DNA from: Thalassotalea sp. PS06
GTDB lineage: Bacteria; Pseudomonadota; Gammaproteobacteria; Enterobacterales; Alteromonadaceae
NCBI RefSeq assembly: GCF_007197775.1
Contig: NZ_CP041638.1
Coordinates: 2,666,001 to 2,730,000, forward strand
Direction: 5' to 3'
Length of the DNA: 64,000 nt
The notes below the pieces were generated by a model. It saw only the letters and a program-made list of their open reading frames with translations, made no database searches and was not told the DNA's origin. Shown piece by piece: positions 14,814 to 59,939 of the stretch. The translations under genes were made by a program, and so were the position numbers. How positions within the stretch are numbered: the stretch's first letter is position 1; each line of letters starts with the position of its first letter.

Positions 14814-16277
14814 CTATGCTCTTAAAAGCTCAAGAATTTGCTGCTTTTTGTTCTGCATTAAGGTTACATCACCCTTTGATTCAACGTTTAAACGCACCAC
14901 TGGCTCTGTATTTGATGATCGTAGGTTAAACCGCCATTCAGTTTCACCTACTTTAAAAGCCATTGAGATCCCGTCAGTTTCGTCCACCAAGACTGCGTCC
15001 GGTTCATACTCAGCTCGCACTCGTTGAATCGCTTGCTTAGGACTTTCCAGTTTAGAGTTAATCTCACCCGAAGATGGATAGGCAGCAATACGCTCAGAAA
15101 TTAGCGATGACAGAGCAACGCCTTTTACCGACAATAGCTCTGCAACCAACAGCCAGGGGATCATCCCCGAATCGCAATAGCCAAAATCTCTAAAATAATG
15201 ATGAGCGCTCATTTCACCACCATATATTGCATTTTCCGAGCGCATGCGTTCCTTGATAAAGGCGTGTCCAGTTTTACTCTGAATCGCTTCTCCACCTGCA
15301 GTTTCCACCAAATCAATGGTATTCCAGGTTAACCTTGGGTCGTGAATGATTTTCTCTTTGACGCCTTGATTCCTTGATTCCTGTTGGAGGAATGCTTCGG
15401 CAAGGAGGCCAACAATATAGTAGCCTTCAATGAACTCTCCCTCCTCATCGAAAAGAAAACAGCGATCAAAGTCTCCATCCCATGCAATGCCCATATCCGC
15501 ACCATGTTCGATAACAGCTTTAGCGGTATCTTCACGACATTCCGGTAGCAATGGATTAGGAATACCATTCGGAAATTTCCCATCCGGCTTGTGGTGGACC
15601 TTGATAAATTCGATGCTTGCTCCAGCGCTATTTAGCGCATTTTCTATAGCATCCAGTGCAGGCCCGGCAGCACCATTTCCCGAATTTACAACCAGCTTTA
15701 ACGGCTTAAGCTTTTTCGGATCGATGAACTCCAGCATATGCTGCGCATATTCCGCTTTTAAGTTACGAGTGATATATTTACCACGAATGTCAGCAGAAGG
15801 ACCTTTCATCTCACCACTCACCACTTTTTCTGCGGTTTGTTGGATCGCGCGCAAACCGCTATCCCCTGATATCGGCTTAGAGTCTTCCCTTACGAATTTC
15901 ATCCCATTGTAATCTAAAGGATTATGGGATGCGGTAACTTCAATTCCACCATCAACCCCTAGATGCCTGGTAGCAAAATAGATTTCTTCCGTACCTGTCA
16001 TTCCGAGATCGATGACATCGACCCCCTGGTCTTGCAGCCCTTTTGCCAATGCCAGTTTAAGTATCTCTGAAGTCAGTCGAATATCACCACCAACCACCAC
16101 AGTTTTTGGTTTAATTTCAAGAGCAAAGGCACGACCGATCGCGTAAGCGATGTCTTCATTTAATTCTTCGCCCAACTTTCCGCGTATGTCGTATGCTTTG
16201 AAACAAGTAAGGGAAGTAGGTGTCAAGGAGTCAAGAGGCTTATCTGCCTTCAAGGTGTCAAGTGTGTTGTCATTCAT
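14814..16277 (-). CDS. manB: Phosphomannomutase with repeat-derived insertions
   Basis: 487 residues of the CpsG/ManB alpha-phosphohexomutase family. It has the active-site serine loop [14 protein letters not shown], metal-binding DGDFDRCF, sugar-binding [13 protein letters not shown], and phosphate-binding [14 protein letters not shown]. It converts mannose-6-P to mannose-1-P for GDP-mannose, the substrate of the adjacent ManC. About 20 extra N-terminal residues (before [11 protein letters not shown]) and a ~5-residue insertion ([11 protein letters not shown] region, DNA about 15360-15392) coincide with CTTGACACC / CCTTGATTCC repeat words seen in nearby non-coding DNA. If the repeat-derived start is not used, no internal Met offers a good alternative. 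It overlaps the four-helix-bundle gene by 8 nt. Confidence 0.93.
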
Positions 16278-16623
16278 TGAAATTTTCTTTTCTATATTTA
16301 ATCAGGCCAGTTATCATTTTTGAAATTTCGATACTCTCATCAATCCAACGCTGGCCAACACTTGAATCGATATAATCTATTTCAATACCTAAATAAATTT
16401 GGGTTCGCAGTTCGCCGCATGAACCTCGGGAATACATCAAAAAACGAATCAATTCTTTCGTTGATTGTCTTTCATGACCTTCGGCAATATTCGAAGGTAT
16501 GGATAAACTAGAGCGTGTGATCTGATCTTTGAAACCATAATCAGGACATGATTTGAAATGCAGGTATACTTCTTTTGAAAGCGCTAAGGAGCGCTGCCAC
16601 ACGTTTAACTGTTCAAACTTCAT
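16270..16623 (-). CDS. Four-helix-bundle protein (S23 / bAvd-like)
   Basis: 117 residues with the S23-family pattern: [17 protein letters not shown] at the N-terminus, [25 protein letters not shown] in the middle, [17 protein letters not shown], and a C-terminal [13 protein letters not shown] helix. The family includes proteins encoded in 23S rRNA intervening sequences and the Avd accessory proteins of diversity-generating retroelements; most members have no known role. The start at 16623 has a perfect GGAGG site; an upstream in-frame start at 16653 lacks one. It is inserted between manC and manB and overlaps manB by 8 nt. No reverse transcriptase is present in the window. A second paralogue is at 47864. 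Confidence 0.9.
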
Positions 16624-29903: not shown

Positions 29904-32240
29904 CTATTGGGAAATATCGATTGCTTTTTTATATTCGTACTGATAATAACCGTAATCTGAGTAATACGAGCTGGATTTTGCTTCCATCGCATTAAAGATC
30001 ACGCCTTTGATATCAACGCCATTAAGTTCAAATCGCTCAAGTGCTGCGCCGATTTCTTTTAAGGTGCTTACTTCATAACGGGTAAGCATAAAAGAGGTAC
30101 CGGCATGGTTGCCCACAACCGCAGGATCGGTTACTGCCATAATTGGTGGTGTATCAATAAGCACCAAGTCGTATTCTTTAGAAGCTCGATGTACGAACTC
30201 TTCAAAGTTTTTACCCATTAGTAATTCTGATGGATTAGGCGGGATAGCACCACGAGTGACGATGTCCAGATTTTCTACATCGGTAGACTTAATCACATCC
30301 TCAAAAATTGCTTTATTAGAAAGTAAATCGGACAGGCCGGTATCCCATAACAAATCGAACATTTTCTGCAGATAGCCACGGCGCATATCGGCATCGACAA
30401 TCAACACCTTTTGACCACTTTGAGCGATAACCGTTGCCAGGTTAGCACTGACGAAGGATTTACCTACTTCCGGGCTAGCACCGGAGATCATCACTACGTT
30501 GTTTTTCGCTTCAAGCATGGCGAAATGCAAAGATGTGCGGAGGCTTCGGATAGCTTCAACAGCTAAATCTGTAGGATGTTCTTTAGCTAATAGCAACTCA
30601 TGATCTTTACGACGATTGGTGCCAAAATCGATTTTGCTCTCGGACTTAGCTTTCTTGGAACTAGGTCGATATTTATTTAATTTTGCTTTTAGTTTGCTAA
30701 CGCGCTCCCGCTTTTTATTAAACGCATCCTGCACTTCACTCACCGGAATAGTGGCATATAGAGTAAGGCCGATATCTTCGAAATCGCGGGGATTGGAAAT
30801 TGCGCGATTAAATGCCGCTTTTAGCAATACAATAGCCACGGCAAACATACCGCCGAGCATAGTAGCCAGTACAACAATCAATGATTTCTTAGGTTTTACC
30901 GGATGCTTGGCAACCTGTGCCTGGTCAACAACGCGAACATTGCCTACCGTGCCTGCTTTGGCAACATTAAGCTGTTGAACATTGTTAAGAAGAGATAAAT
31001 ATATTTGTTGATTGACTTCAACATCGCGGGTTAAGCGAAGAATTTGTTGTTGCGTGGAAGGTAAGTTTTTAACGCTATTGGCCAAGGACTGCTTTTGCGC
31101 TAATAAATCTTCTTTTTTCTTAATTAGCGATACATAACTTGGATGTTCTTTCGTATAGCGCTGGGAGATTTCCGTTTCTTTGAACGACAATTCATGGATA
31201 CGGGTATCGATATCGACAATTTGATTAAGAATTGATTGGGTTTCTAATGAAAGGTCAACAGATTGGTTTTCCAGGCGGAAGTTGTTGAGTAAACCCTCTG
31301 CGGTTTCTAACTGCTTTTTAACCTGGGGAAGTTCCTGCTCTAAAAAACGGATGGAGTTTTGCACTTCCGCAGACATGCGCTCAACATTTTGCAGCACATA
31401 GGAGTGGGTGATGGCATCAAGGATTAATTCCGTTTTCGCTTTATTGGTACCTTCCATCGTCAGGAATAAGATACCTGAACTCTTGCCCTTTTCCGATACG
31501 CTTAAACCTGACTGTAAATCTTTAATGGCATCACTTCGTGCTTGCTTGGTTAGATTAAACTGAGTTCCTTTAAGGGCTAACAAGTCAGTGATAAGCAGAC
31601 GAATATCGCCGCCGCGTAAGCCCTCACTAACTGCCAGCTGGTTAACGCGCCCTTTTAGCAATACTTTTTCCGCATTATCCGCCAATGATAACTGATACTC
31701 ACCATCCCCGAGGTTTGTAACAATAAAGCCCTTGCCTTCAAGGTTTCTCGGTACAGAAAAGTTCGCGACATTGATAACTTCGCCGCCCCAGGCGTATTTA
31801 TCTGACGTTAAATTTGCTAACCAAGGTTGATTGAAATCATCATCAGATATTTTGCTATAACGACGGGCAAAGAACTCGCCAACACTGCCTAAATAGTTCG
31901 GTGTTACCACATTGGTCAGTTTTAAATCATCAACCACTTTACCCATTACCATGCGCGATTTTAACAGTTCGATTTCGGTAACCGCTTCACTATCGGTAGC
32001 AAACATCTCACCTAGATCATCAAGACCAGGAAGACCTGCGCTCTTTTGCTCAATTTGAATAAGGGCATCAGCTTTGTATACCGGCGTGGCAAGTAACGCA
32101 TACGCGATACCGATGAAGGTAAAGATGGCGGTTACCGCAACAATGAAGAGTTTTTTCTCCAGCAGTAAGCCAAATAGGCGGGATAAATCAATTTCATCGC
32201 TGTCAGAGACAGGTGCTGTTTTATTGGGGGTAGTAGACAT
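29904..32240 (-). CDS. wzc: Wzc-type polysaccharide chain-length determinant / tyrosine autokinase
   Basis: 778 residues, normal for fused proteobacterial Wzc. The Wzz domain includes a first membrane helix (LFIVAVTAIFTFIGIAYALL), a long periplasmic coiled-coil region and a second helix near 455-480 (SLIVVLATMLGGMFAVAIVLL) preceded by the proline-rich HPVKPKK. The C-terminal BY-kinase has Walker A GASPEVGKS (587-595), Walker A' VLIVDADMRRG, Walker B LVLIDTPP and a tyrosine cluster at 759-770 with seven Tyr. It controls polymerisation and export through the cycle of autophosphorylation. No wza or Wzb-like phosphatase gene is in the window. Confidence 0.95.
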   Translation of the reverse strand: MSTTPNKTAPVSDSDEIDLSRLFGLLLEKKLFIVAVTAIFTFIGIAYALLATPVYKADALIQIEQKSAGLPGLDDLGEMFATDSEAVTEIELLKSRMVMGKVVDDLKLTNVVTPNYLGSVGEFFARRYSKISDDDFNQPWLANLTSDKYAWGGEVINVANFSVPRNLEGKGFIVTNLGDGEYQLSLADNAEKVLLKGRVNQLAVSEGLRGGDIRLLITDLLALKGTQFNLTKQARSDAIKDLQSGLSVSEKGKSSGILFLTMEGTNKAKTELILDAITHSYVLQNVERMSAEVQNSIRFLEQELPQVKKQLETAEGLLNNFRLENQSVDLSLETQSILNQIVDIDTRIHELSFKETEISQRYTKEHPSYVSLIKKKEDLLAQKQSLANSVKNLPSTQQQILRLTRDVEVNQQIYLSLLNNVQQLNVAKAGTVGNVRVVDQAQVAKHPVKPKKSLIVVLATMLGGMFAVAIVLLKAAFNRAISNPRDFEDIGLTLYATIPVSEVQDAFNKKRERVSKLKAKLNKYRPSSKKAKSESKIDFGTNRRKDHELLLAKEHPTDLAVEAIRSLRTSLHFAMLEAKNNVVMISGASPEVGKSFVSANLATVIAQSGQKVLIVDADMRRGYLQKMFDLLWDTGLSDLLSNKAIFEDVIKSTDVENLDIVTRGAIPPNPSELLMGKNFEEFVHRASKEYDLVLIDTPPIMAVTDPAVVGNHAGTSFMLTRYEVSTLKEIGAALERFELNGVDIKGVIFNAMEAKSSSYYSDYGYYQYEYKKAIDISQ

Positions 32241-33024
32241 AATAGTTTCTTGTTTTTAGGTACACAATCGAGGATTGTTTCGGGTACACAAAATTAAAAA
32301 TTTTGTTTCGAGTACGTGAAACGAAAAACATGTTTCACTTCGGGTACATGAATCAGAGATTCATTCCGGGTACACAAAATCATTTGATTTTTTTGGGTAC
32401 ATGAATCAGAGATTCATTTCGGGTACACAAAATTAAAAATTTTGTTTCGGGTACGTGAAACGAAAAACATGTTTCACTTCGAGTACATGAATCGGAGATT
32501 CATTCCGGGTTAGAGCGCTTTAACTCGAAGAGACGCTGTTTGTCTCGTACCCGGAGTAACGTTGTTTGTTACGTTCTCGGAGCGATGCTGTTTATCGCGT
32601 ACTCGGCGCAACGCTGTTTGTTGCATACTTTCGCAACGATGGGGTCAGAGCTAAAGATCTGACCCCATGGTTGCGTTTTAGGCACGCTTCCGCCCTTAGG
32701 TTTGGCTCCTAAAGGCAAAAAATTCGGTGATTAAAAATTTTGATTCGAAATTTTTAAGAACTTCGAATTTTTTCTAAGTGCGGGGCAAACCGCGCCCCTC
32801 CGAGTACGCGAAACGATAAAACTGTTTCGCTTCGGGTACATGAATCGAAGATTCATTCCGGGTACGCTGATAAATCAGCTTCGGGTAAATTGCTTTTGCT
32901 CGAAGAGACGTTGTCTGTCTCGTACCCGGAGTAAAAATCTTATTTTTACGTACCCGAAACCGAAATTTACTTTCGGTGTTCTCGAAGCCAATGTTTTTTA
33001 TTGGCGTACTAGTCGTGGTTCCAA
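32241..33024. repeat. GGGTAC-punctuated hairpin array between rfaH-like gene and wzc
   Basis: 784 bp. From 32258 to about 32510 at least nine units alternate a short palindrome with the linker TTCGGGTAC: stems include ACAATC/GATTGT, ACAAAAT/ATTTTGT, GTGAAAC/GTTTCAC and ATGAATC/GATTCAT. At CGGGTTAGAGCG (about 32507) the polarity reverses and linkers read GTACCCGGAG, with stems AGAC/GTCT, TAAC/GTTA, CGAT/ATCG and CAAC/GTTG. A second forward/reverse set is at about 32800-33010. A 42-nt palindrome lies at 32633-32674 (one mismatch, 8-nt loop). All of this would lie in the leader between the rfaH-like gene and wzc. Confidence 0.9.
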
Positions 33025-33561
33025 TCAATCCTCTTTATCTATGTCCTGATTGGAAACCACGACTTCGTTCTGTTGGCCGAGCATGTTCAATAGAATGATT
33101 GAACGTTCGAGGCCATCTGACGATTTATATATTGCGGATAAGCCCTTGAACGGGCCATTGGTGACAATTAGCGCATCACCCCGGTGATAATTTTCTAGGT
33201 CAGCTAAGGTTGGTAGCTGGTCTGAATCGCCGGTTATTTCCGTATCTTGTTTTAATTGTTCAATTAACGGTTCGTTTACGGTAGCCATATTGGCACCAAA
33301 ACGAACAAAATTCGCCACCCCGCGGGTGGAGCGAATTGCATTAAAATTGGCATTCACTGAATCCAGTTTTACGAAAAGGTAGTTTGGAAAAAGAGGTTCA
33401 ACGGAAACCGACTTAACTCCCTGTCGTTTTTTTACTGCAGAAATCTTGGGATAGAAAACTTCAACCCCCTGACTTACCAGGTTGTCGAACGCTCTACGCT
33501 CATCCCTGGGTTTTGAAGTAATTACGTACCACTTCTGTGTCGAATTTACTGCGTTAGACAT
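33025..33561 (-). CDS. RfaH/NusG-like transcription antitermination protein
   Basis: 178 residues from the start at 33561 (an upstream in-frame GTG at 33591 would add 10). An N-terminal NGN domain begins KWYVITSKPRDERRAFDNL and includes PLFPNYLFVKLD and the STRGVANFVRFG segment. A C-terminal KOW-like domain has FKGLSAIYKSSDGLERSIILLNMLGQ. RfaH paralogues are recruited by ops sites to let RNA polymerase read through long polysaccharide operons. The position at the head of the cluster fits that job. No ops core (GGCGGTAG) was seen downstream; instead the leader holds the hairpin array. Confidence 0.9.
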   Translation of the reverse strand: MSNAVNSTQKWYVITSKPRDERRAFDNLVSQGVEVFYPKISAVKKRQGVKSVSVEPLFPNYLFVKLDSVNANFNAIRSTRGVANFVRFGANMATVNEPLIEQLKQDTEITGDSDQLPTLADLENYHRGDALIVTNGPFKGLSAIYKSSDGLERSIILLNMLGQQNEVVVSNQDIDKED

Positions 33562-33591
33562 ACTGCACTCAGCAAAAGGCGTGTTGCACAC

Positions 33592-34657
33592 ACCCTCATT
33601 AATTAACTATTTTTATTGCCGTATTGCCTCTTAGATTTTTCAAGAGGCGACATCGCCTATTTAACCATCAACCATGATGGAAAAACAACCAAAAACAGGT
33701 TGGATTCGATGTTTCGACTGTCGTTATAGATTACCGGAAAAAACAGTGGATACAAAGGGGGAAGGGAGAAAAATTTTTGCGCGAAGCGTCACCGAAGGTC
33801 AACTTGTTGATTCGGCGACACTTCGCGTGGGTACACAATTGAAAATTGTTCCGGGTACGTGACAATCAACGTCACTGCGGGTACATGAACCAAAAGTTCA
33901 TTTCGGGTACGCTGCAGAAAAACGCAGCTTCGGGTTAGAGCGAGCTTTATTGGGAACACAATCGAAGATTGTTCCGGGTACGTGAAACGAAAACGCGTTT
34001 CACTTCGGGTACATAAACCAAGGTTTATTCCGGGTACGCGATGAAAAGCATCGCTACGGGTTAGAGCGAGCTTTATTGGGTACACAATCGGAGATTGTTT
34101 CGGGTACGAGGCGAACAGCGCCTCTTCGAGTACATGAATCAAAGATTCATTTCGGGTACGCTGCGGAAAAACGCAGCTGCGGGTTAGAGCGAGCTTTGTT
34201 GGGTACACAATCGGAGATTGTTCCGGGTACGCGATGAAAAGCATCGCTACGGGTTAGAGCGGCTCTTAACTCGAAGGGCGCAGTTTGCCCGTACCCGAAG
34301 TAAAAATCCTATTTTTACGTACCCGAAACAAAATCTTGATTTTGTGTACCCGGAGCCAATGCTGTTTATTGGCGTACCCTTTCACTCGAAGGGCGTAGTT
34401 TGCCCGTACCCGGAGTAAAAATCTCATTTTTACGTACTCGAAACAAAATCTTGATTTTGTGTACCCGAAGCCAATGCTGTTTATTGGCGTACCCTTTCAC
34501 TCGAAGGGCGTAGTTTGCCCGTACCCGGAGTAAAAATCCTATTTTTACGTACCCGAAACAAAATCTTGATTTTGTGTACCCGGAGCCAATGCCGTTTATT
34601 GGCGTACCCTAAAAAGCAAAAAACCGGCATCAGCCGGTTTTTAAACTTGGTTCTTCC
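33592..34657. repeat. GGGTAC-punctuated hairpin array between rpoS and the rfaH-like gene
   Basis: The array runs from about 33781 to 34610. The forward half (to about 34255) has units such as ACAATT/AATTGT, GTGAC/GTCAC, ATGAAC/GTTCAT, GCTGC/GCAGC, GTGAAAC/GTTTCAC, CGATG/CATCG and GAGGC/GCCTC joined by YCGGGTAC. It is divided into blocks by CGGGTTAGAGCGAGCTTTAT. The reverse half is a 115-bp tandem (starts 34271, 34386, 34501) with stems GGGC/GCCC, TAAAAAT/ATTTTTA, ACAAAAT/ATTTTGT and CCAAT/ATTGG joined by GTACCCG. The promoter of the rfaH-like gene and the rpoS terminator lie at the edges. No gene. Confidence 0.92.
34618..34642 (-). terminator. Rho-independent terminator of rpoS
   Basis: AAACCGGC, loop ATCA, GCCGGTTT, with a run of A on the plus-strand left side giving a T tract on the minus strand. 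It lies 16 nt after the rpoS stop codon. Confidence 0.88.
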
Positions 34658-35596
34658 TTAGCCTTGGAAGAGCGCCTCGATACTGAGATTTTGCGCAGAC
34701 AGAATATCGCGCAGGCGCTTCAGTGCTTCTACTTGAATCTGGCGTACGCGTTCGCGTGTTAAGCCAATTTCCAGGCCCACATCTTCGAGGGTGGCTGGTT
34801 CATAGCCTAACAGGCCAAAGCGACGAGCAAGGACTTCGCGCTGTTTCGAGTTCAACTCGTTCAACCAGTGCACGATGTTTTCTTTGATATCGCTATCTTG
34901 CAGATCGGATTCTGGCCCCTGGCTTTTCTCATCCGCGAGCACATCCAATAAGGCTTTTTCAGAATCGCCGGCAAACGGCGTATCTACTGAAGTGATGCGT
35001 TCATTTAATTTGAGCATTTTCGAGACATCAGCAACGGGCACATCGAGTTTGGTTGCGATTTCTTCAGCGGTTGGCTCATGGTCAAGTTTTTGCACCAGTT
35101 CACGTGCCGCACGCAGGTAAACATTGAGTTCTTTGACAACATGGATGGGAAGTCGAATCGTGCGGGTTTGGTTCATAATGGCACGTTCGATGGTTTGACG
35201 AATCCACCAGGTGGCGTAGGTGGAGAATCTAAATCCGCGTTCAGGGTCGAATTTTTCGACGGCTCGGATCAAACCTAAGTTTCCTTCTTCGATTAGGTCA
35301 AGAAGGGGTAAACCACGATTATTGTATCGTCGGGCGATTTTGACAACCAGTCGCAAGTTACTCTCGATCATCCTGGCTCGAGATGCCTGGCAACCTTTCA
35401 GCGCTTTGCGGGAAAAGTAAACCTCTTCCTCGGCTGACAATAAAGGTGAAAAGCCAATCTCACTCAGATACAATTGCGTTGCATCTAAATTAGCGCCAGA
35501 ATCTTCTGGAGTTATCTTCTCTTCCTTGAGTTTGTTGGTTTCAGTTTCGGCTACTGCTTCAACTACCGCTTCGTTGCTTTTACTCTTACTCATCAA
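34658..35596 (-). CDS. rpoS: RNA polymerase sigma factor RpoS
   Basis: 312 residues. Sigma-70 group 2 layout: region 1.2 ([26 protein letters not shown]), region 2 with [42 protein letters not shown], region 3, and region 4 with [26 protein letters not shown]. It is the general stress and stationary-phase sigma factor. The neighbour nlpD is the standard RpoS partner, and in enterobacteria the main rpoS promoter lies inside nlpD; only 62 nt separate the two here. The usual mutS/csrA neighbourhood is replaced by the hairpin array and polysaccharide cluster. Confidence 0.97.
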
Positions 35597-41155: not shown

Positions 41156-42617
41156 GAAGATACGGGCCGTTAACGGAGTTAAGGAGATAATAGCAACTTC
41201 GCCCGTAAAACGGAATGGGTTTTACAGCAGAGCTGTATAGGGGGAGTCGAAACCAAAGATGTTTCGGAGGTGGAGTCGAAGCCAAAGATGTTTCGGAGGT
41301 GGAGTCGAAACCAAAGATGTTTCGAAGGTGGAGTCGAAACCAAAGATGTTTCGAAGGTGGAGTCGAAACCAAAGATGTTTCGGAGGTGGAGTCGAAACCA
41401 AAGATGTTTCGGAGGTGGAGTCGAAACCAAAGATGTTTCGAAGGTGGAGTCGAAACCAAAGATGTTTCGCAGGTGGAGTCGAAACCAAAGATGTTTCGGA
41501 GGTGGAGTCGAAACCAAAGATGTTTCGAAGGTGGAGTTGACGAACAGCGTCAATGGTGGAGTAAATACTCCCTAGCGTCGTATTTATGGTGGACTCTAAC
41601 GATGCACTTGGCTTTGATTTCCAGTCGTAGCTGGAAATGACGAGTTGGAAGTGGAAGAGGAAGGTGGAAGTGGGAGGTGGAAGTGAGCCTCGCTTCGTCA
41701 TCTCCGGGTAACTGGAGATCTCAGGATTAGGTTTTGGCTTTGATTTCCAGTCGTAGCTGGAAATGACGAGTTGGAAGTGGAAGAGGAAGGTGGAAGGTGG
41801 AAGTGAGCCTCGCTTCGTCATCTCCGGGTAACTGGAGATCTCAGGATTAGGTTTTGGCTTTGATTTCCAGTCGTAGCTGGAAATGACGGGAGGAAGGTGG
41901 AAGTGGAAGGTGGAAGTGAGCCTCGCTTCGTCATCTCCGGGTAACTGGAGATCTCAGGATTAGGTTATGGCTTTGATTTCCAGTCGTAGCTGGAAATGAC
42001 GAAAAGCGACTTTATGTTACGCAGTTTAATTACCGTCATCACAGAAAATCGCTCCTGCATTTTCTGCATACCGGTCATCCTTGACCATATTCGGGTCACT
42101 GAAGATCTCGTGCTTAGGTTACGGCTTTGATTTCCAGTCGTAGCTGGAAATGACGAAAACCTACCTCGAGACGACTCGTCTCGACTCCACCATTGACGCT
42201 TTGCGTCAACTCCACCTTCAAAATTTTATTTTGACTCCACCATTTCAGCTTCGCTGAAACTCCACCAAAAATTGCTCCTCGATAACTGCTCCTCGATAAC
42301 TGCTCCTCGATAACTGCTCCTCGATAACCGCTCCTCGATAACTGCTCCTCGATAACTGCTCCTGCGTTATTCTACCTACATACTTCCATGTATTAGTGCG
42401 TTATTCTACCTACATACTTCCATGTATTAGTGCATTTTCGGCATATAAACCGTCCCTGGTTAAAACCCTTGCAGCTTTGCTGCAACTCCACCTTTTACGC
42501 TTTGCGTAAACTCCACCATCGACGCTCAGCGTCGACTCCACCTTCAAATCGTATTCTGTTTTGACTCCACCTGCGAAGCGTCCCTCTAAAAAGATAAAAG
42601 CTCCCGACGGGAGCTTT
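41156..42617. repeat. Large composite repeat region: 29-bp hairpin tandem, palindrome composites, nested hairpins
   Basis: No gene; the overlapping long frames on both strands are translated repeats. (1) 41241-41535: ten copies of a 29-bp unit, GGTGGAGT plus the hairpin CGAAAC/GTTTCG. (2) About 41600-42000: four TTTCCAG palindromes (cores 41618, 41744, 41864, 41977) alternating with CTCCGGGTAACTGGAG palindromes and GGAAGTGGAAG microsatellite, with a fifth core at 42131. (3) 42185-42265 and 42470-42580: CTCCACC hairpins. (4) 42264-42440: nested GCTCCT hairpins with a 14-bp CTCGATAACTGCTC tandem. (5) A terminator at 42596. Confidence 0.92.
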
Positions 42618-42619
42618 TT
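42596..42619 (-). terminator. Terminator of the 213-residue hypothetical gene
   Basis: AAAAGCTCCC, loop GA, GGGAGCTTTT. The right arm overlaps the stop codon at 42618-42620. The stem and about 70 nt beyond it closely resemble the eno terminator region at 44120-44216. Confidence 0.8.
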
Positions 42620-43259
42620 AAAACTTCTCCGCCGGCGGCAAAGGCTTTTGAAAATTCTTCCAATTAATTTGTGAAGACAACAATAGCTCTCTTAAATCAA
42701 GAGATCTGGGGTTAGATTTTTTACCTGCAACCCATCGATGTCCACTGCATGCGGCAAGCATTACTTTGCGGTTCGGTTTTAAAAGCTGATAGCCATACTT
42801 ATTTTCGATTCCGGAACTGGTCAGCTGGAACCGACCTGAAAAATTACAGCGTATGGTATTAGCCTCAAGGTCAATTTTATCGATGCAATCGAGGAAAATA
42901 AATTCTATACCTTGTGCTTGTTGATACACAGGCACAACTAATCCCAGTGACAGTGTTTTCGTTTGAAACCAACTAGCGACGGTATCTGGGGTTTGATCAT
43001 TTATGGGTATCTTAGTGGATTGTTTTGCTGACCAACTTGCATTTTGACAATCAACCTGAATTGGTGCGTCAGAGGCTAAGAGCGCATGGGCTGTTCTCGA
43101 TATGTAATGGCTGAGACTTTTTAGCTTGGCTTGAATAGGTGCAACGCTGCTAGTTTCCAAAGCAGACAACTTGTCAACTTCACGCTCATATAAAGCGTGG
43201 CAAAGCTGATGAAATTGAGGGTGGGATCCAGCCCCTTGCCAAAAAGAGTCTTGTTCCAT
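42618..43259 (-). CDS. Conserved hypothetical protein
   Basis: 213 residues, no signal peptide and no membrane helix; I do not recognise the family. The body has mixed alpha/beta composition, with an HQLCHALYEREVDKLSALE helix near the N-terminus and cysteines at several spots. No catalytic motif is evident. Base composition and codon use look native and the frame is long for this AT content, so it is likely real. Flanked on both sides by hairpin repeats. Confidence 0.7.
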   Translation of the reverse strand: MEQDSFWQGAGSHPQFHQLCHALYEREVDKLSALETSSVAPIQAKLKSLSHYISRTAHALLASDAPIQVDCQNASWSAKQSTKIPINDQTPDTVASWFQTKTLSLGLVVPVYQQAQGIEFIFLDCIDKIDLEANTIRCNFSGRFQLTSSGIENKYGYQLLKPNRKVMLAACSGHRWVAGKKSNPRSLDLRELLLSSQINWKNFQKPLPPAEKF

Positions 43260-43623
43260 TTTCCGTGAGAGTTGCCTGAACCAGCAATGCTCCTTGCTAT
43301 CCGTTATTATTGGTTGTTTATTAATTAAACATAAGTTCCCTAAAAAAAGCCAGCGTAATAAACGAATCGTTTGGATGGTAAAGTCGAGACGACTCCTGGG
43401 TAGTGAAATTGAAAATCAGCGTCAACAATGGATTTGGCGACACAAAAAGAGGTTTCGAGAATTGAGTAAGCCGCTGCTATGTTAGTGGCGTGCTGGGAGC
43501 TCATAGAGCGGGTGCGTCGTCTTAAATTGGATGGAAGGGCATAGAGCGTTTGAGTCATTCCCTGCCACGACAGGGAATCAAGGTCTACACTTTTCTAATC
43601 AGTCATAGAAATGGATTTCTCTG
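43260..43623. repeat. Intergenic with variant palindrome upstream of the GIY-YIG gene
   Basis: 364 bp. A variant of the interspersed palindrome, TTCCCTG-CCACGA-CAGGGAA, has its core at 43558-43577, with the usual TCAT left and TCAAGG right flanks. It lies 46 nt before the GIY-YIG start. The rest (43260-43550) contains no supported gene. Confidence 0.75.
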
Positions 43624-43911
43624 ATGAAACAACCTGCAATTTATATAGTCACTAACAAAGAAAACACTGTCGTATATATCGGTGTTACTAGCAACTTACC
43701 GCAGCGCATATACCAACACAGAGAGAAACTGGTTGCAGGTTTTGCCAGTAAATATAGTTTGTCTAAATTGGTTTACTTCGAGCTTTTCGACGATATGGTC
43801 AATGCTATTTCACGGGAAAAGCAGCTAAAAAAATGGTCCCGAGCCTGGAAAGATGAATTGATAGGAAGCTCTAACCCTGATTGGCGCGATTTGTATCCGG
43901 AGATACTCTGA
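43624..43911 (+). CDS. Small GIY-YIG nuclease domain protein
   Basis: 95 residues, all one GIY-YIG domain: AIYIVTNKENTVVYIGVTSNL (GIY..YIG equivalent), the catalytic Arg in LPQRIYQH, and the metal Glu in AISREKQLKKWSRAWKDELI. Small stand-alone members (UPF0213-like) have unclear cellular roles. It is one of few plus-strand genes here and is bracketed by palindromes in inverted orientation (43558-43577 and 43939-43958). The last codons (LYPEIL) come close to CCGGAGAT words shared with the repeats. Possibly a mobile or repeat-associated nuclease. Confidence 0.88.
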   Translation: MKQPAIYIVTNKENTVVYIGVTSNLPQRIYQHREKLVAGFASKYSLSKLVYFELFDDMVNAISREKQLKKWSRAWKDELIGSSNPDWRDLYPEIL

Positions 43912-44220
43912 TGGTTAAGGTTTTGGTTTTGGCTTTGATTTCCAGTCGTGGCTGGAAATGACGGGAGGAAGAGGAAGGTGGAAGTGGAAGGTGGAAGTGA
44001 GCCTCGCTTCGTCATCTCCGGGTAACTGGAGATCTCAGGATTAGGTTTTGGCTTTGATTTCCAGTCGTAGCTGGAAATGACGGGTTAAGCTTTTCAGCTT
44101 TGCTGAAACTCCACCCTTGACGCTGCGCGTCAACTCCACCTTCAAAACATATTCAGTTTTGACTCCACCTGCGAAGCCTCCCTCTAAAAGCAAAAAAGCT
44201 CCCGAAGGAGCTTTTTAAAG
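43912..44220. repeat. Palindrome composites and CTCCACC hairpins between GIY-YIG gene and eno
   Basis: TTTCCAG palindromes have cores at 43939-43958 and 44058-44077 with a CTCCGGG palindrome and GGAAGTGGAAG microsatellite between. From 44090 CTCCACC-linked hairpins (TTTCAGC/GCTGAAA, TTGACGC/GCGTCAA, TCAAAAC/GTTTTGA) lead to the eno terminator. Confidence 0.9.
44193..44216 (-). terminator. Rho-independent terminator of eno
   Basis: AAAAAGCTCC, loop CGAA, GGAGCTTTTT, immediately before the eno stop codon side on the minus strand (5 nt after the stop). Confidence 0.9.
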
Positions 44221-45534
<1,314 letters not shown>

Positions 45535-45535
45535 T

Positions 45536-45573
45536 TAATAAAAAAGCCGTAGCTAACATCCTTAGCTACGGCT
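45536..45573 (-). terminator. Terminator hairpin between pyrG and eno
   Basis: AGCCGTAGCTAA, loop of 5 nt, TTAGCTACGGCT (12-bp perfect stem), followed by T residues on the minus strand. It lies just after the pyrG stop. Confidence 0.9.
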
Positions 45574-45586
45574 CGCTTTGAACTTA

Positions 45587-47863
<2,277 letters not shown>

Positions 47864-48220
47864 ATGTTTCATGAAAAGCTTGTGGTTTGGCAAAAGAGTT
47901 GTGACCTAGCGGTTCAAATTTTTAAATTAACGGCATCGATAACCGATTTTGGCTTTCGCGATCAAATAACCAGAAGTAGTTTGTCTATCGCCAGCAATAT
48001 AGCTGAAGGCATAGAGAAACCGACTATAAATGACAAAAAGAAGTATTTGTATATCGCGAAAGGCAGCCTTGCAGAGCTTAAGACCCAGTTAATAATTGGC
48101 GAGCGAATAGGTTATCTAGATTTTCATTCTGTAAAAAATTATAGACAAGAAGCCGAGCTTATAGATCGAATGATAATAGGGTTGATTAAGAAGGTGGAGT
48201 CAAGACAGAAGACGTCTTGA
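47864..48220 (+). CDS. Four-helix-bundle protein (S23 / bAvd-like), C-terminus formed by repeat DNA
   Basis: 118 residues. [63 protein letters not shown] and a C-terminal IDRMIIGLIKK helix are the S23/four-helix-bundle pattern; it is a divergent paralogue of the gene at 16270. The last ~10 codons (KVESRQKTS) and the stop come from the first unit of the following GGTGGAGT hairpin array: AAGGTGGAGTCAAGACAG onward. A ribosome-binding site (AAGGAG) lies upstream. Direct repeats of ~115 bp lie on both sides. The family's role is not known. Confidence 0.9.
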   Translation: MFHEKLVVWQKSCDLAVQIFKLTASITDFGFRDQITRSSLSIASNIAEGIEKPTINDKKKYLYIAKGSLAELKTQLIIGERIGYLDFHSVKNYRQEAELIDRMIIGLIKKVESRQKTS

Positions 48221-48587
48221 AGGTGGAGTTGACGTAAAACGTCAAGGGTGGAGTTGACGCAAAGCGTCAATGGTGGAGTTGACGTAAAACGTCAAGGGTG
48301 GAGTTGACGTAAAACGTCAAGGGTGGAGTCGACGCAAAGCGTCAATGGTGGAGTTGACGTAAAACGTCAAGGGTGGAGTTGACGTAAAACGTCAAGGGTG
48401 GAGTCGAGACGAGTCGTCTCGAGGTAGGTTTTCGTCATTTCCAGCCACGACTGGAAATCAAAGCAAGATTCTTCGTCAGTCTCCACCAAAAATTCGAAGG
48501 CTGGGAGAATTTTCTCCAACATCGGTAGACGCCACCCAATATACGACGCAATGGAGTATATTATCCCTCTTTAATAGGAGAATAAAA
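48188..48587. repeat. GGTGGAGT hairpin array downstream of the four-helix-bundle gene
   Basis: About nine units at 48190-48425 with stems AAGACG/CGTCTT, TTGACG/CGTCAA and GAGACG/CGTCTC, then a TTTCCAG palindrome (core 48438-48457) and a tail ending near 48513. The last ~115 bp duplicate 47631-47746. The array starts inside the coding sequence. Confidence 0.92.
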
Positions 48588-48608
48588 ATGACGTATTATT
48601 CTCCTATT
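48573..48608 (+). promoter_or_regulatory. Hairpin containing a ribosome-binding site upstream of yjbQ
   Basis: AATAGGAGAATAA (48573-48585) and TTATTCTCCTATT (48596-48608) form a perfect 13-bp stem with a 10-nt loop that includes an ATG (48588). The left arm contains AGGAG. The yjbQ start at 48630 is 21 nt after the stem. Confidence 0.75.
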
Positions 48609-48629
48609 TTAATGATCGGGATAATTTTT

Positions 48630-49052
48630 ATGTGGCATCAACAAACGATTCAATTGCAGCCTAAATCCAGGGGCTTTCACTTGGTAACCGATGAGATCAC
48701 CTCGAAAATTTCGGCGCTTTCGGATTTTCGCGTTGGCTTTATGCAATTGTTTATTCAGCATACGTCGGCTTCCTTAACCATAAATGAAAATGCAGATCCG
48801 ACGGTGCGTATGGATATGGAGAGCCATTTTAATCAGTTCGTACCGGAAAATCAGCCTTATTACCTGCACGATTATGAAGGTTCGGATGATATGCCTGCTC
48901 ATATTAAGAGTTCAATTCTGGGTTGCCAGTTAATGGTCCCTATTGAAAATGGCCGGTTAGCTATGGGCACCTGGCAAGGCATCTACTTGTGCGAGCACCG
49001 TAATCATGGTGGTGCGAGAAGGATTGTCTGCACGCTAAATGGCGAAAGTTAA
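48630..49052 (+). CDS. yjbQ: YjbQ family protein (UPF0047)
   Basis: 140 residues from [10 protein letters not shown], the family's usual start; an in-frame ATG at 48588 would add 14 residues encoded by a hairpin. [42 protein letters not shown] and [16 protein letters not shown] with conserved His/Asp/Glu residues match E. coli YjbQ. Homologues show thiamine-phosphate-synthase-like side activity, but the true role is not settled. Arrays precede and follow it. Confidence 0.92.
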
Positions 49053-49348
49053 TTAAAACACGTCGCTACATCGAGTTTTAAGGAGGAGTAAAATATTCCA
49101 CTGCGTCATATTTTATGGTGGAGTCTGACGAGGGTGGAGTAAATACTCCCTAGCGTCGTATTTAAGGTGGACTCTAACGATGAACTTGGCTTTGATTTCC
49201 AGTCGTAGCTGGAAATGACGGAAACCCACCTCGAGACGACTAGTCTCTACTCCACCATCGAATCGTTTTCTGATTCGACTCCACCCTCAAGATGTTTTCC
49301 ATCTTGACTCCACCAGCGCAGCTTACCTCTCTAACCCAGAGCGAGGCG
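49053..49348. repeat. GGTGGAGT/CTCCACC hairpins and a palindrome between yjbQ and the DUF3083-like gene
   Basis: Hairpins with fixed loop TCCACTGCGTC or TCCCTAGCGTC (AAAATAT/ATATTTT and AAATAC/GTATTT) at 49090-49165, a TTTCCAG palindrome (core 49196-49215) and CTCCACC-linked GAATC/GATTC and AAGATG/CATCTT stems at 49240-49315. Confidence 0.9.
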
Positions 49349-50482
49349 TTAGCCTTGCTCTGGAAGCTGGTGCATCAAATGCTGATGAATCCGCAAGGTA
49401 ATCGCATCTTTTTCCTTGCTGTAACCTAACTGGGTTGTCAGCTTGGCCAAAACTTCCGAAAGCTGGTTTACAAAGCGGCCATAACCTCTATGGGTACAAT
49501 TATGATCACTAGCGATAAATACTAAACGAATGGTATCCACCAGCTTACTTGCATCCCATTGGCTAACTAACAGACCATTTATCGCCATTGTATTAAAACC
49601 AAGGTTTAACAGCTCACCATCGGGAACCACAAAATCCTCATCACTTTGACGAATAATAGGCATCTTGCCATTAGCAACCATTGCCAAATGATTAAGATTA
49701 TATTGGCGTGCCAGCTTAGTGAATTTATCAGCGACCATGGTATACAAAGGATTGTAAGGATCGACGGCATTGGCATCAATTTCACATTGACTTAACAACG
49801 CATTGGTAACCGGCAAACTGGCAACTGCAAAGGTCATGGCTTGACGCTTAGCTGGAAGGATCAGCTGTTGTTGCTGGTATCGTTTGCTAATCGGTCGAAA
49901 CCCATGAGTTAGTGTTTTTTTATCGCCTTTGTGTGGCGCGAACACATCATAGGTTAAATGCTGAAAGTCTTTTACTTTAATACTCGCTGATTGCAAACCT
50001 TGTGTTGTTACAAATTCCGTCACAAGTTGGGTGATTTGTATATGAAACTCTGGCGCATGCTCGCGAATCGTATCGCCTGTTGCTAAAAACAATAACTGTA
50101 TTTTTTTCGCCCACGTGTCACCATCATAAAAGTGTTGGCGACCATAGTGCGCCACCGGATTATAAAGAAACAGCAATTGCTGCTTGGTTTCCACGACCTG
50201 CTGCTCTGGTGAATACATGACCCGAACCAATTTGTCCTGGGCTATAAAACTGGCATTTTCAACCTTATGCTGAGCGCAAAGCTGAAAGAATACACTGCTT
50301 AATGACTGATAAAGTTGCTCAGCTGAAGCTTGGGGAAAATCGCTGCGAAACTTAGCAATCAAATCATCAGGCTTGATTTCGATAAGAAGATACTGATTTT
50401 CGCGAGCCGACGATGGCACGTAAACTTTATGAGCGGCACTGCGTTTACGAATCAATGAAGTACGTGTTCGGTGTTGCAACAT
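49349..50482 (-). CDS. Uncharacterised conserved protein (possibly DUF3083)
   Basis: 377 residues, soluble, no signal peptide. I think it belongs to DUF3083, a family I associate with Alteromonadales; this is recognition from general appearance, not a search. Features: LIEIKPDDLIAKFRSDFPQASAEQLYQSLSSVFFQL, LLFLYNPVAHYGRQHFYDG, VVPDGELLNLGFNTMAINGL and FIASDHNCTHRGYGRFVNQL. No catalytic motif I can name. The 3' end (encoding LPEQG) lies in an AGAGCAAGG...GCTCTGG palindrome that recurs in the 50.8-51.2 kb tandem repeats. Confidence 0.78.
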   Translation of the reverse strand: MLQHRTRTSLIRKRSAAHKVYVPSSARENQYLLIEIKPDDLIAKFRSDFPQASAEQLYQSLSSVFFQLCAQHKVENASFIAQDKLVRVMYSPEQQVVETKQQLLFLYNPVAHYGRQHFYDGDTWAKKIQLLFLATGDTIREHAPEFHIQITQLVTEFVTTQGLQSASIKVKDFQHLTYDVFAPHKGDKKTLTHGFRPISKRYQQQQLILPAKRQAMTFAVASLPVTNALLSQCEIDANAVDPYNPLYTMVADKFTKLARQYNLNHLAMVANGKMPIIRQSDEDFVVPDGELLNLGFNTMAINGLLVSQWDASKLVDTIRLVFIASDHNCTHRGYGRFVNQLSEVLAKLTTQLGYSKEKDAITLRIHQHLMHQLPEQG

Positions 50483-51359
50483 AATTGACCTCTGGGGCTG
50501 ATTAGAAAAATCGCTGCCACTTTAAAGTGAGTTTGTGACGGTTGGATGACTGGGGAATGAAAGAATTGTTACAGATGCAAAGCTAGCGCTTTGCATCTGG
50601 TAATGGAGGGATTCTGCGAAGTCGGAGTCAAACACTCCTCTGCGTCGTGTTTTATGGTGGAGTCAAACACTCCTCTGCGTCGTGTTTTATGGTGGAGTCA
50701 AACGAAGGTGGAGTAAAACGTTCCTCTAGGTCACGTTTTAGGATAACTCATTCCATTGCAGCTTTGCTGCAACTCCACCATTGACGTATTACGTCAAATC
50801 CACCATCAAGATGTTTTCCATCTTGACTCCACCAGCGAAGCTTACCTCTCTAACCCAGAGCAAGGCGTTAGCTTTGCTCTGATATGGTTTTGATTTTGAT
50901 TTCCAGTCGTGGCTGGAAATGACGAAAACCTACCTCGAGACGGCTGGTCTCGACTCCACCCTCAAGATGGCTTCCATCTTGACTCCACCAGCGAAGCTTA
51001 CCTCTCTAACCCAGAGCAAGGCGTTAGCTTTGCTCTGATATGGTTTTGATTTTGATTTCCAGTCGTAGCTGGAAATGACGAAAACCTACCTCGAGACGGC
51101 TGGTCTCGACTCCACCATCAAGATGTTTTCCATCTTGACTCCACCAGCGAAGCTTACCTCTCTAACCCAGAGCAAGGCGTTAGCTTTGCTCTGATATGGT
51201 TTTGATTTTGATTTTCAGTCGTAGCTGGAAATGACGAAAACCTACCTCGAGACGGCTGGTCTCGACTCCACCATCAAGATGGCTTCCATCTTGACTCCAC
51301 CATTGACGGTTTACGTCAACTCCACCTTCAAGGCTACGCCTTGACTCCACCCGCAAAAC
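50483..51359. repeat. Hairpin array with a 156-bp tandem repeat between DUF3083-like gene and mazG
   Basis: 877 bp without a gene. At 50625-50745 three GTGGAGT hairpins share the loop TCCTCTGCGTC/TCCTCTAGGTC with stems AAACAC/GTGTTT and AAAACGT/ACGTTTT. From 50806 a 156-bp composite unit is repeated (starts 50806, 50962, 51118, partial at 51274): an AAGATG/CATCTT hairpin, a CAGAGCAA/TTTGCTCTG palindrome, a TTTCCAG palindrome and a CGAGAC/GTCTCG hairpin, all joined by CTCCACC. The array ends 11 nt before the mazG stop. Confidence 0.93.
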
Positions 51360-52166
51360 TTAATAGCCATTAAGTTTTGCTTGTTGCCAAAGCCTTTCCA
51401 GCTCTTCGAGGCTGGCATGGGTGATATCCGTATTGGTATTAAAGAAATGGTTTTCAATCGACTGAAAACGGCGAGTGAATTTTTGGTTTGCCTGTCGTAA
51501 GGTTTGTTCCGGGTCCAGCTTTGCATGGCGAGCGAGATTTACAACAGCAAACAGTAAATCGCCTATTTCTTCCGATAAAGCCTGCTGGTTTACATCTTTC
51601 GCATTTAACTCTGCTGAGATTTCATCACATTCTTCACGAACCTTATCAAATACGTCTGCAATATTGTCCCAATCAAAACCAACGTGGGCGCAACGTTTTT
51701 GAATTTTTGCAGCTTGCGATAGCGCCGGCAGGCTGCGTGGTATATCGGCCAGCATGCTTAATTGTGATTGCGCAGTTTTTTGCTGCCGCTCTTTGGCTTT
51801 TTCTGCTTCCCAATTGGCTTTTATCGCGGCTTCATCGGCAAATTGGTTATCGGCAAAAACATGGGGATGGCGACGAACCAGTTTTTCACAGATTTTTTCA
51901 ACGACAGAATCGAAATCAAATAACTCCTGCTCTTTACCAAGCTGAGCGTAAAATATCACCTGAAACAAGAGATCGCCGAGCTCCTTTTCAAGCTCTTCGA
52001 AGTCTTGGTTTTCTATGGCTTCTGCAACTTCGTAAGCTTCTTCGAGCGTGTATGGCACAATCGTGGCAAAGCTTTGCTTTTGGTCCCAGGGACAACCCTC
52101 GTCAGGATCCCGTAACGATTTCATGATCCAAATGAGCTTTTCAACACTCCCGGGCGATGACAACAT
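51360..52166 (-). CDS. mazG: Nucleoside triphosphate pyrophosphohydrolase MazG
   Basis: 268 residues, two MazG domains. Domain 1: GCPWDQKQSFATIVPYTLEEAYEVAEAI and ELEKELGDLLFQVIFYAQLG with the EExxE..ExxD metal sites. Domain 2: RCAHVGFDWDNIADVFDKVREECDEI and EIGDLLFAVVNLARH. It hydrolyses NTPs to NMPs, and in E. coli lowers ppGpp effects. Nine nt downstream of relA, the conserved arrangement. Confidence 0.97.
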   Translation of the reverse strand: MLSSPGSVEKLIWIMKSLRDPDEGCPWDQKQSFATIVPYTLEEAYEVAEAIENQDFEELEKELGDLLFQVIFYAQLGKEQELFDFDSVVEKICEKLVRRHPHVFADNQFADEAAIKANWEAEKAKERQQKTAQSQLSMLADIPRSLPALSQAAKIQKRCAHVGFDWDNIADVFDKVREECDEISAELNAKDVNQQALSEEIGDLLFAVVNLARHAKLDPEQTLRQANQKFTRRFQSIENHFFNTNTDITHASLEELERLWQQAKLNGY

Positions 52167-52175
52167 ATTCCATCC

Positions 52176-54368: not shown

Positions 54369-54786
54369 TTAACATCCTTAGTTAAGTTTTTATCCTAGCG
54401 GTTAAAAACTTTTTATAGAGGGAATCTAACGATGGTGGAGTAAAATATTCCACTGCGTCATATTTTATGGTGGAGTCTAACGAAGAATAAAATCACTCTC
54501 TATCCTATATCGCGCTTTTGGGTGGAGTCTGACGAAGGTGGAGTAAAATATTCCACTGCGTCATATTTTATGGTGGAGTCTACCGAAGGTGGAGCAAAAC
54601 GCTCCACTGCGTCGCGTTTTGGGATATTAAGTTCACTTCCTTTGCAGCTGAGCAGCAACTCCACCATCGAATCGTTTTCTGATTCGACTCCACCTTTGAA
54701 ACGCTTTCCGTTTCAACTCCACCATTGACGTTTTACGTCAACTCCACCATCGACGCCATACGTCGACTCCACCTTTCACAAAACCG
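54369..54786. repeat. Hairpin array between relA and rlmD
   Basis: GGTGGAGT-linked hairpins with the fixed loop TCCACTGCGTC and varying stems (AAAATAT/ATATTTT twice, AAAACGC/GCGTTTT) at 54430-54625. Then come CTCCACC-linked stems GAATC/GATTC, GAAACG/CGTTTC, TTGACG/CGTCAA and TCGACG/CGTCGA at 54655-54775, running up to the rlmD stop. Confidence 0.92.
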
Positions 54787-56121: not shown

Positions 56122-56569
56122 AAGAATTCCGATAGTTCGTCAGCTAAAGACTTATAGCTGACGAAGTGGGAGTAAAATGTTCCGCTGCGTCTCATTTTAA
56201 GTTGGAGTCTAACGATGGTTATGACCACGGATGGTCGGTATACAGAAAATGCAGGAGCAATTTTCTGAGGAGTAAACACTCCCTAGCGTCGTATTGATGG
56301 TGGATTCTAACGATGAACGACTGTGTCTGTTCATTGCAGCTTTGCTGCAACTCCACCTTTGAAACGTTTACGTTTCAACTCTACCATCGACGCTCAGCGT
56401 CGACTCCACCTTCGAAACGATAAACGTATGCCGTTTAACGTTTCGATTCCTCTCTCGTGCAAAAGTTGTAGTCGAAGCGAGTGTCGCTTCGACTACAACT
56501 TTTGCACGAGTTATGCCATGATGAGAGAAGTTTAAACAAAAACAATTCTAACACGGTTTCTGTACCTAT
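56122..56569. repeat. Repeat DNA and two strong hairpins in the barA leader
   Basis: GGAGT-type hairpins with loop TCCGCTGCGTC at about 56165-56205, a nested-type hairpin core (CAGAAAAT GCAGGAGCA ATTTTCTG) at about 56250-56275, CTCCACC-linked stems at 56335-56410, then two large hairpins at 56412-56446 and 56454-56510 described separately. No gene. Confidence 0.9.
56412..56510. promoter_or_regulatory. Two large palindromes in the barA 5' region
   Basis: 56412-56446: 15-bp arms (one mismatch) around a 5-nt loop. 56454-56480 and 56484-56510: a perfect 27-bp inverted repeat with a 3-nt loop GTG. They end 59 nt before the barA start. Confidence 0.9.
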
Positions 56570-59350: not shown

Positions 59351-59939
59351 AAGCCTAATTAGGTAAAACCCTAATTAAGCTTTTACCTAAGTCGGAGTAA
59401 ATACTCCCTAGCGTCGTATGTAAGGTGGAGTCTGACGAGGGTTATGACCACGGATGGTCGGTAAACAGAAAATGCAGGAGCAATTTTCTGAGGAGAAAAT
59501 ATTCCACTGTGTCACATTTTGGGTGGACTCTACCGATGTGCTGTACTTTGATTTCCAGTCGTAGCTGGAAATGACATAACATCTAGTTGGCAGACTATCG
59601 TCGGTGGATAAAACCTGCTCCGCTTGCGGTTTTTAGGTGACAGCTAACGCACTGACAAAAAACTGTCTCCTTCCGAGTCATCCCGGCGTAGGCCGGGATC
59701 TAGCTGTTATGTTGGTTTGCGAAAAGCAACCTCGAGACGAATAGTCTCGACTCCACCATTTCAGCTTCGCTGAAACTCCACCCTTTACGCATGCGTAAAC
59801 TCCACCTTTGAAACGTTTTTTGTTTCAACTCCACCTTTGAAACGTTTTTTGTTTCAACTCCACCTTCGAATCACTTTTGATTCGACTCCTCCCTCGGCGC
59901 TCTGCGTCGACTCCACCTTTAAAACGTCTTCTGTTTTGA
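59351..59939. repeat. Hairpin array between barA and acpS
   Basis: 59344-59389: 11-bp stem TAGGTAAAAGC / GCTTTTACCTA, whose left arm includes the barA stop. Then hairpins with loops TCCCTAGCGTC and TCCACTGTGTC, a CAGAAAAT-type hairpin, a TTTCCAG palindrome (core 59552-59571) and a common TCATCCCGGC..GCCGGGATCTA palindrome at about 59678-59702. CTCCACC-linked stems GAGAC/GTCTC, TTTCAGC/GCTGAAA, GAAACG/TTTC twice, GAATC/GATTC, CGACG-type and AAAAC/GTTTT at 59735-59938 end at the acpS stop. Confidence 0.93.

Follow-up and report, generated by a model that had tools for sequence, protein, structure and literature searches.

What are the small hairpins that crowd the intergenic DNA on both sides of rfaH in the marine bacterium Thalassotalea sp. 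PS06? We examined a 64,000-nucleotide (nt) stretch of contig NZ_CP041638.1 (positions 2,666,001 to 2,730,000; hereafter the window, whose own numbering we use), in which the intergenic stretches of the rpoS-rfaH-wzc region, 32253-33010 and 33826-34612, are packed with small perfect hairpins with the word YCGRGTAC between them. A preliminary description made from the sequence alone could name no known element type with this layout. A relative can in fact be named, the intervening-sequence elements that carry a gene for IVP/S23p, the 23S-rRNA-intervening-sequence protein (PF05635). We place the arrays with these elements because both sister species have an IVP gene within their arrays at the corresponding site, and because about half of the IVP genes that we surveyed are flanked by iterated words. 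Our reading, to which we assign a probability of roughly 55%, is that the arrays are an RNA-structured, IVP-linked, dispersed family of modular repeats, and that the window locus is a derivative without its IVP gene.

Hairpins (perfect stem of at least 5, loop of 3-9, non-overlapping) were counted against a null of 200 dinucleotide shuffles. The two stretches contain 49 (shuffle mean 10.4, maximum 16), including 37 with a stem of at least 6 (mean 3.0, maximum 8). Twenty-eight are bounded by linkers, and none of the 200 shuffles gives a single linker-bounded hairpin, so sequences of equal composition do not rival the linker-spaced stems. GGGTAC occurs 39 times in the window compared to a shuffle mean of 13.4 and a largest value of 25, with 34 of these occurrences within 32282-34609; YCGRGTAC occurs 34 times where 3.1 are expected, 32 of them in the same region. 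The joints had been described as the nearly constant word YCGGGTAC, with GGGTAC as the punctuation. The constancy of the word holds, but strict GGGTAC does not: the linker is YCGRGTAC, and it is present in both orientations with a pivot in each array.

The three arrays, A, B, and C, each run from a plus block through a pivot to a minus block, so that the words are inverted across the pivot, which reads GGGTTA...TAACTCG or similar. In array A, the plus block (32253-32506, plus strand) has nine hairpins by reading (ACAATC, ACAAAAT, GTGAAAC, ATGAATC, and others) with YCGRGTAC or near forms as joints; the linker orientation flips at the pivot (32507-32527, GGGTTAGAGCGCTTTAACTCG), which resembles the array C pivot (34251-34273, GGGTTAGAGCGGCTCTTAACTCG) and those of other loci; and the minus block (32528-32630, minus strand; direct repeat family D9) has four hairpins (GAGAC.., GTAAC.., GCGAT.., GCAAC..). 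Array B (32795-33010) comprises three plus-orientation hairpins, a pivot, and four minus-orientation hairpins. Array C is made of tandem four-hairpin cassettes, 123-126 nt long with stems that differ between cassettes in the plus block (33826-34250, plus strand), and three of 115 nt in the minus block (34274-34610, minus strand; cassette register 34266-34610, repeat D1), the latter block being orthologous in T. litorea. At one cassette position in array C the stem is GTGAC, GTGAAAC, or GAGGC, and it is paired every time.

The two arms of the hairpins do change together, as had been claimed. The comparison took in 77 different units bounded by linkers, of which 22 come from this region, 50 from loci elsewhere in the same genome, and 14 from T. 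litorea, some of them shared. On average 5.35 of the six outer positions are paired, compared to 2.49 ± 0.14 when 3' arms are swapped and 1.61 when shuffled, and at least four of the six are paired in 75 of the 77 units. For the 35 distinct units of 17 nt, the covariation score is 0.699 vs 0.228 ± 0.027 and the number of doubly changed cells is 55 vs 12.4 ± 2.9 (each reached by 0 of 500 shuffles), with the caveat that kinship among units alone can beat such shuffles with no structure needed. Sliding the partner columns brings the score down from 0.70 to at most 0.17. On the same units, two coarser measures did not separate from the shuffles: 6 pairs with double change vs 5.0 (reached by 146 of 500), and 11 pair types vs 12.2 (reached by 440 of 500). 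RNA folding against 40 shuffles gave z-scores of −18.7/−17.6 for 33826-34612, −10.2/−7.3 for array B, and −6.2/−6.2 for 32253-32640, compared to −0.4 to −2.0 for two coding controls. Pairing is thus retained far beyond chance without retention of sequence, and this supports structure as what is conserved in the arrays. The units also begin with a purine in all 76 cases counted, and their loop centers are A-rich on the CGRGTAC strand. Identical neighboring stems are absent (0 of 68) where global permutation expects 6.7 (P = 0.001), yet permutation within arrays expects only 1.5 (P = 0.17), and for this reason we do not claim that identical neighbors are avoided.

The arrays had been presented as a feature of the rfaH locus, which proved too narrow: this is one site of a genome-wide family. 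The PS06 genome contains 80 CGRGTAC linker pairs at 28 places, 26 of which have hairpins (the two without are near 2375689 and 3063326); a reversed-pattern control gives 5 pairs (gap 10-40) or 1 (gap 10-36). Each of 58 relatives has 0-6 pairs, about the level of that control; one match, in genome G005, consists of two such words with a hairpin between them. At the 25 other places with hairpins (14 of the 25 inspected), the linker words recur with stems that are the same or different. Several loci of the family contain a larger composite unit of ~204-245 nt, and one (L002, 1-1100) has about six tandem copies of a 204-nt version. A second family, with linker GGTGGAGT, accounts for 110 pairs in PS06 (control 3) and for none in 14 congeners. 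Its stems covary as well: 38 distinct window units have 5.66 of six positions paired vs 3.39 ± 0.20 when swapped, taking the best of three register offsets tried. Eleven clusters of this second family lie within 41269-60783 of the window, two of which adjoin an IVP/S23p gene (PF05635; 47864-48220, plus strand): one variable-stem hairpin array is 5' of the gene (47418-47721, plus strand), and another covers its 3' end and the DNA downstream (48193-48405, plus strand). A third family, CCTAGCA, contributes 16 pairs, many of them overlapping. Elsewhere in the genome (G000:C1:2733705-2733903) we observed tandem 16-nt units TCCTAGCAC together with mini palindromes (GCTTCGC, ATTGCAT), which may represent the hairpin-array layout at its smallest.

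How, then, do relatives compare at the same site? PS06 groups with T. litorea and T. mangrovi (PMC7564069), and these have the nearest RfaH proteins among named relatives (93% and 86%, respectively). The arrays between rpoS and rfaH are orthologous in T. litorea over 412 nt at 90.5%, which rules out an assembly artefact; in the post-pivot part, 115 nt match at 90.4%, and the array between rfaH and wzc is less similar (194 nt at 77%). The two species have the 115-nt cassette and most of the stems after the pivot in common, and in one orthologous stem a whole base pair has been exchanged (GAGGCG..CGCCTC vs GAGGCC..GGCCTC). In T. mangrovi, the rfaH gene region and a 178-nt leader with an ops-like element (92%) match PS06, and the comparison gave no match in array sequence; this species has arrays at the rpoS-rfaH-wzc site with other stems and the linker YCCTAGCAC. 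Between rpoS and rfaH, the arrays of both sister species enclose an IVP gene, at 4857-5210 of the T. litorea locus (L028) with the CGRGTAC linker, and at 5093-5434 of the T. mangrovi locus (L027) with YCCTAGCAC. The blocks nearest the IVP gene of T. litorea carry GTACYCG upstream and CGRGTAC downstream.

We turn to IVP genes at large. PF05635 is matched in 15 of the 59 genomes of the near sample, PS06 included, and in 57 of 274 genomes in the class sample, 52 of which score above the curated cut-off. We scored the commonest canonical 6-mer, on both strands, within 350 nt of each gene. An iterated flank word exceeds all 100 dinucleotide shuffles at 29 of 55 IVP loci and at none of 25 ParE loci (Fisher 7.5e-7), and the near flank beats the far flank 38:6. 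The words are locus-specific (TAGGGA, GAACTC, CTGTTC, AGGTGA, ATTCTG, and others). Among the 29 positive loci the commonest spacing is 7 nt in 22, and the orientation across the gene is inverted in 21 (narrowly so in L073, L076, and L099), direct in 3, tied in 3, and one-sided in 2. Because the both-strand test was written after part of the flanks had been viewed, we added a second set, in which 10 of 18 loci are positive and near beats far 12:3; of these 10, 7 have 7-nt spacing, and the words are inverted in 5, direct in 2, and one-sided in 3. Seven of 62 IVP loci were dropped, six for contig ends (L094, L102, L103, L110, L112, L114) and one for internal stops (L121), as were 5 of 30 ParE loci and 2 of 20 in the second set (L176, L177). 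Gene edges came from the match for ParE and from the reading frame for IVP, and the near-duplicates L099/L101 and L082/L088 were kept. A same-strand word test was weaker (p = 0.009), and shared 7-mers gave p = 0.23. A second IVP gene of the window (16270-16623) has flanks that carry iterated CCTTGA words, not hairpins.

These observations suggest how the arrays may work. They would be selected for RNA secondary structure, with the constant word CGRGTAC alternating with hairpins whose stems are freely replaceable. An array could be transcribed along with the rpoS, rfaH, and polysaccharide genes and fold as a string of hairpins. Words in opposite orientation could pair with one another across the pivot, or across an IVP gene where there is one, like the terminal stem of the intervening sequence of 23S rRNA. 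RNase III may excise the element, in which case the host gene would suffer less. The IVP pentamer, a relative of the retroelement accessory protein Avd, may recognize its own word or hairpins and may aid the spread of copies. The window locus would be a derivative without IVP.

Several points weigh against this reading. The window array (32253-34612) has no IVP match, and none of the three IVP genes of PS06 lies within a CGRGTAC array, although for the third (L072) such an array is found ~1.1 kb upstream. In the CGRGTAC arrays, successive words are spaced ~24-32 nt apart rather than 7, and at the GGTGGAGT locus of PS06 the words are mostly direct rather than inverted. Richness in hairpins is not general at IVP genes: the mean is 3.04 near vs 2.60 far, and 3 of 57 loci have at least 9. 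In favor of the reading, these three (L027, L028, L071) form one clade with L072 (95/86), and the hairpin-rich label changes twice on the IVP tree, as few times as in 20 of 500 shuffles. The both-strand test was devised with some of the flanks in view; the ParE loci are from the same class and partly from the same genomes (e.g., G099, G106, G116, G129); and the far-flank control draws on the very loci under test. Independence of the second set is only partial, since some of the first set was drawn from the search that supplied it: G143 gives three loci, G183 and G307 are in both sets, L164 has the word and genus of L100, L163 has the word of L107, and L173 and L174 look alike. Similarity of words follows similarity of IVPs with a Mantel r of 0.37 near and 0.22 far, base composition still being in these values, so that coevolution of word and IVP is not established, and across the genus the two do not correspond one to one. 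GTTCCTA arrays show the difficulty. In G006 they are beside its IVP (L090), and G005 has 55 matches and an 88%-identical IVP (L087) whose flanks failed the test. GTTCCTA is also found where no IVP was found (24 matches in G011, 4 in G007, 1 in G002), and G010 has an IVP with the word AGGAAC yet no GTTCCTA matches.

That RNA, not DNA, is the selected molecule is weakly supported too. In the CGRGTAC stems, A.C outnumbers G.T by 21:0 in the 17-nt subset and by 29:2 over the outer six pairs of all units, but the ratio falls to 7:2 when inner pairs must enclose the mismatch and is 2:3 in the GGTGGAGT family; for this reason we grade the strand signal as weak.

Could IVP genes, iterated words, and hairpin arrays simply gather in permissive intergenic space, with no functional link among them? 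The position of the three PS06 IVP genes outside its CGRGTAC arrays speaks for this, and the matching of word to IVP is unproven. It fits poorly with the ParE genes, none of which has such words, and with words that lie within 350 nt of the IVP gene, are locus-specific, usually have 7-nt spacing, and are mostly inverted, a pattern that the second set resembles. Tandem heptamers have also been reported independently for the Coxiella intervening sequence (PMC4990558). We consider shared habitat alone an unlikely explanation.

The preliminary description offered either selection on structure or a copying process in which the first arm serves to rebuild the second. Conservation of structure is borne out; regeneration of the arm is not. 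If template-switching or hairpin repair rewrote one arm from the other, the linker would be a jump site for the polymerase and the structure an unselected by-product, and both the near-perfect stems of many sequences and the tandem cassettes in which one position holds wholly different stems would follow. However, PS06 and T. litorea share the 115-nt cassette and most post-pivot stems, so rewriting is infrequent, and some stems are A.C-type intermediates in which one side has changed. Given these two observations, stepwise compensation together with exchange of whole modules fits at least as well as arm-copying. Mutational copying would also leave unexplained the constant word, the purine start, and the IVP gene, and it seems to us about as improbable as shared habitat.

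A local role can be imagined, as the arrays flank rfaH itself (33025-33591, minus strand), a NusG paralogue (PF02357) whose earlier designation as rfaH-like stood up: it passes the NCBIfam equivalog model TIGR01955 with 166 bits against a cut-off of 144.5. Between arrays A and B is an element (32681-32694, minus strand; GGCGGAAGCGTGCC) that we call ops-like after the RfaH/ops consensus. The element is shared as GGCGGAAGCGTG, and the word GGCGG[AT]AGCGTG is common to the window, L027 (6838), L028 (6845), L029 (6628), and L092, the last from another Thalassotalea genome in which an IVP gene is ~100 nt from the shared element. The arrays would then be attenuator or RNA-stability structures by which RfaH controls the polysaccharide operon. 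An ops-like element common to three relatives is in keeping with this, as is an excess of terminator-like sites in 32200-34700 (8 vs 3.5 ± 1.6 expected), though only 2 of the 8 are in arrays. We nevertheless think a local leader quite improbable, since hairpin arrays of the same family occur at 25 other places where mechanical open reading frames put the neighboring genes in every orientation (co-directional at 10 places, convergent at 9, divergent at 3, and undecided at 3) and the site in T. mangrovi lacks any similar array sequence. With 2 of 8 terminator-like sites in the arrays, we rejected intrinsic terminators as their identity. We also rejected a protein-coding reading: we take the 151-residue open reading frame at 33789-34244 and similar frames in T. 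litorea to be open frames across repeats. An Rfam scan of 31800-34800 gave no match up to E = 1.

Least probable is a REP/RAYT-like single-stranded DNA transposon, in which a GTAC foot would take the role of the GTAG tag and a Y1 transposase would move the units: the tetranucleotide at the hairpin foot, the inverted layout, and the dispersal are REP-like, and most GTAG families have sub-families with alternative complementary stem residues (PMC3733652), but the tag here is neither GTAG nor CGTC, stems vary between units of one array, and the sole Y1_Tnp match in the genome is below cut-off (22.1 bits vs 23) in a 3.3-kb locus without linker array, so that this identity is largely refuted. That weak Y1_Tnp-like gene is in locus L026 (G000:C1:2328484-2328765).

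Returning to the IVP-linked reading, the closest known system is the intervening sequence in the 23S rRNA of Coxiella burnetii, in which a 28-bp terminal inverted repeat has the S23p gene in its loop, with tandem heptamers just upstream, and which RNase III excises (PMC4990558). The likeness lies in the PF05635-type gene, the adjacent tandem heptamers, and the enclosing inverted repeats, the last of which applies to IVP genes elsewhere, the window locus having no gene to enclose. Here, in contrast, the arrays are outside rRNA (the site is the rpoS-rfaH-wzc intergenic DNA, not helix 25 or 45 of 23S rRNA), the words alternate with variable-stem hairpins, and there are many dispersed copies, nearly all without the gene. 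S23p/IVP proteins have a solved structure and are described as being of unknown function (PMC4990558). PF05635 proteins resemble Avd of diversity-generating retroelements, which is essential to retrohoming (PMC10053308). The IVPs of PS06 and T. litorea match 2GSC by sequence, and an Avd structure was absent among the structure matches of the same two proteins.

Other hairpin repeats differ in what they conserve. REP/REPIN elements with RAYT are short, dispersed, often paired intergenic palindromes that also have alternative complementary stem residues (PMC3733652); we found no GTAG/CGTC tag or array-adjacent RAYT here, and a single array mixes stem classes and lengths (77 distinct units) while keeping the linker constant. 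The repetitive hairpin-forming elements (RHE) of sponge mitochondria and double-hairpin elements are also intergenic hairpin repeats thought to be mobile, but in the RHE discussed in the literature cited the stems are conserved and the loops vary (PMC2800124), whereas here the stems vary with compensation.

Heptameric tandem repeats of bacteria go by the name STRR. Examples are GGGAATC in Xanthomonas, GGGGA(C/T)T in Nostoc, and TAACTGA in Beggiatoaceae (PMC4692102, PMC4679880). They resemble the words described here in being 7 nt long, largely intergenic, and sometimes in inverted pairs (PMC4692102, PMC4679880), and differ in their 7-nt period, which our arrays do not have, their words being separated by hairpins. 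The main texts of those two papers have no S23 or four-helix term, and our literature search, which covered little subscription material, found no link between an IVP gene and iterated flank words beyond the Coxiella case.

A wider proposal, which we put forward only tentatively and at rather less than even odds, is that there is an undescribed class of RNA-structured mobile elements, in which an Avd-like IVP is coupled to a short word of its own, placed as inverted arrays on both sides of the gene. Within Thalassotalea, this word would be interleaved with small hairpins that may change their stems as long as pairing holds, the strings would have spread through the chromosome as non-autonomous copies, and many bacterial heptameric repeats would belong to the same class. 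It is quite possible that the entire class is new. Either way, two old puzzles, the function of S23p/IVP and the reason for iterated intergenic words, become one testable question. The locus-specific word beside an IVP gene is a concrete candidate for the recognition target of the protein, and the arrays are a natural library of hairpins constrained in pairing but free in sequence. The hairpin strings round an S23/IVP gene in the two sister species offer an opening for studies of the workings and spread of such elements.

IVP genes also turn up in other settings. In 3 of the 10 plasmid records examined (of 16), an IVP gene is between CRISPR genes, as an inserted passenger would be. These are cyanobacterial plasmids (L125, L126, L131) in which the IVP is a four helix bundle protein, and long iterated words are beside the gene in L125 and L126. 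In six further loci (L075, L077, L079, L083, L085, L089) the IVP gene appears, by eye, to be between sulfate-assimilation genes (cysD/cysN-like).

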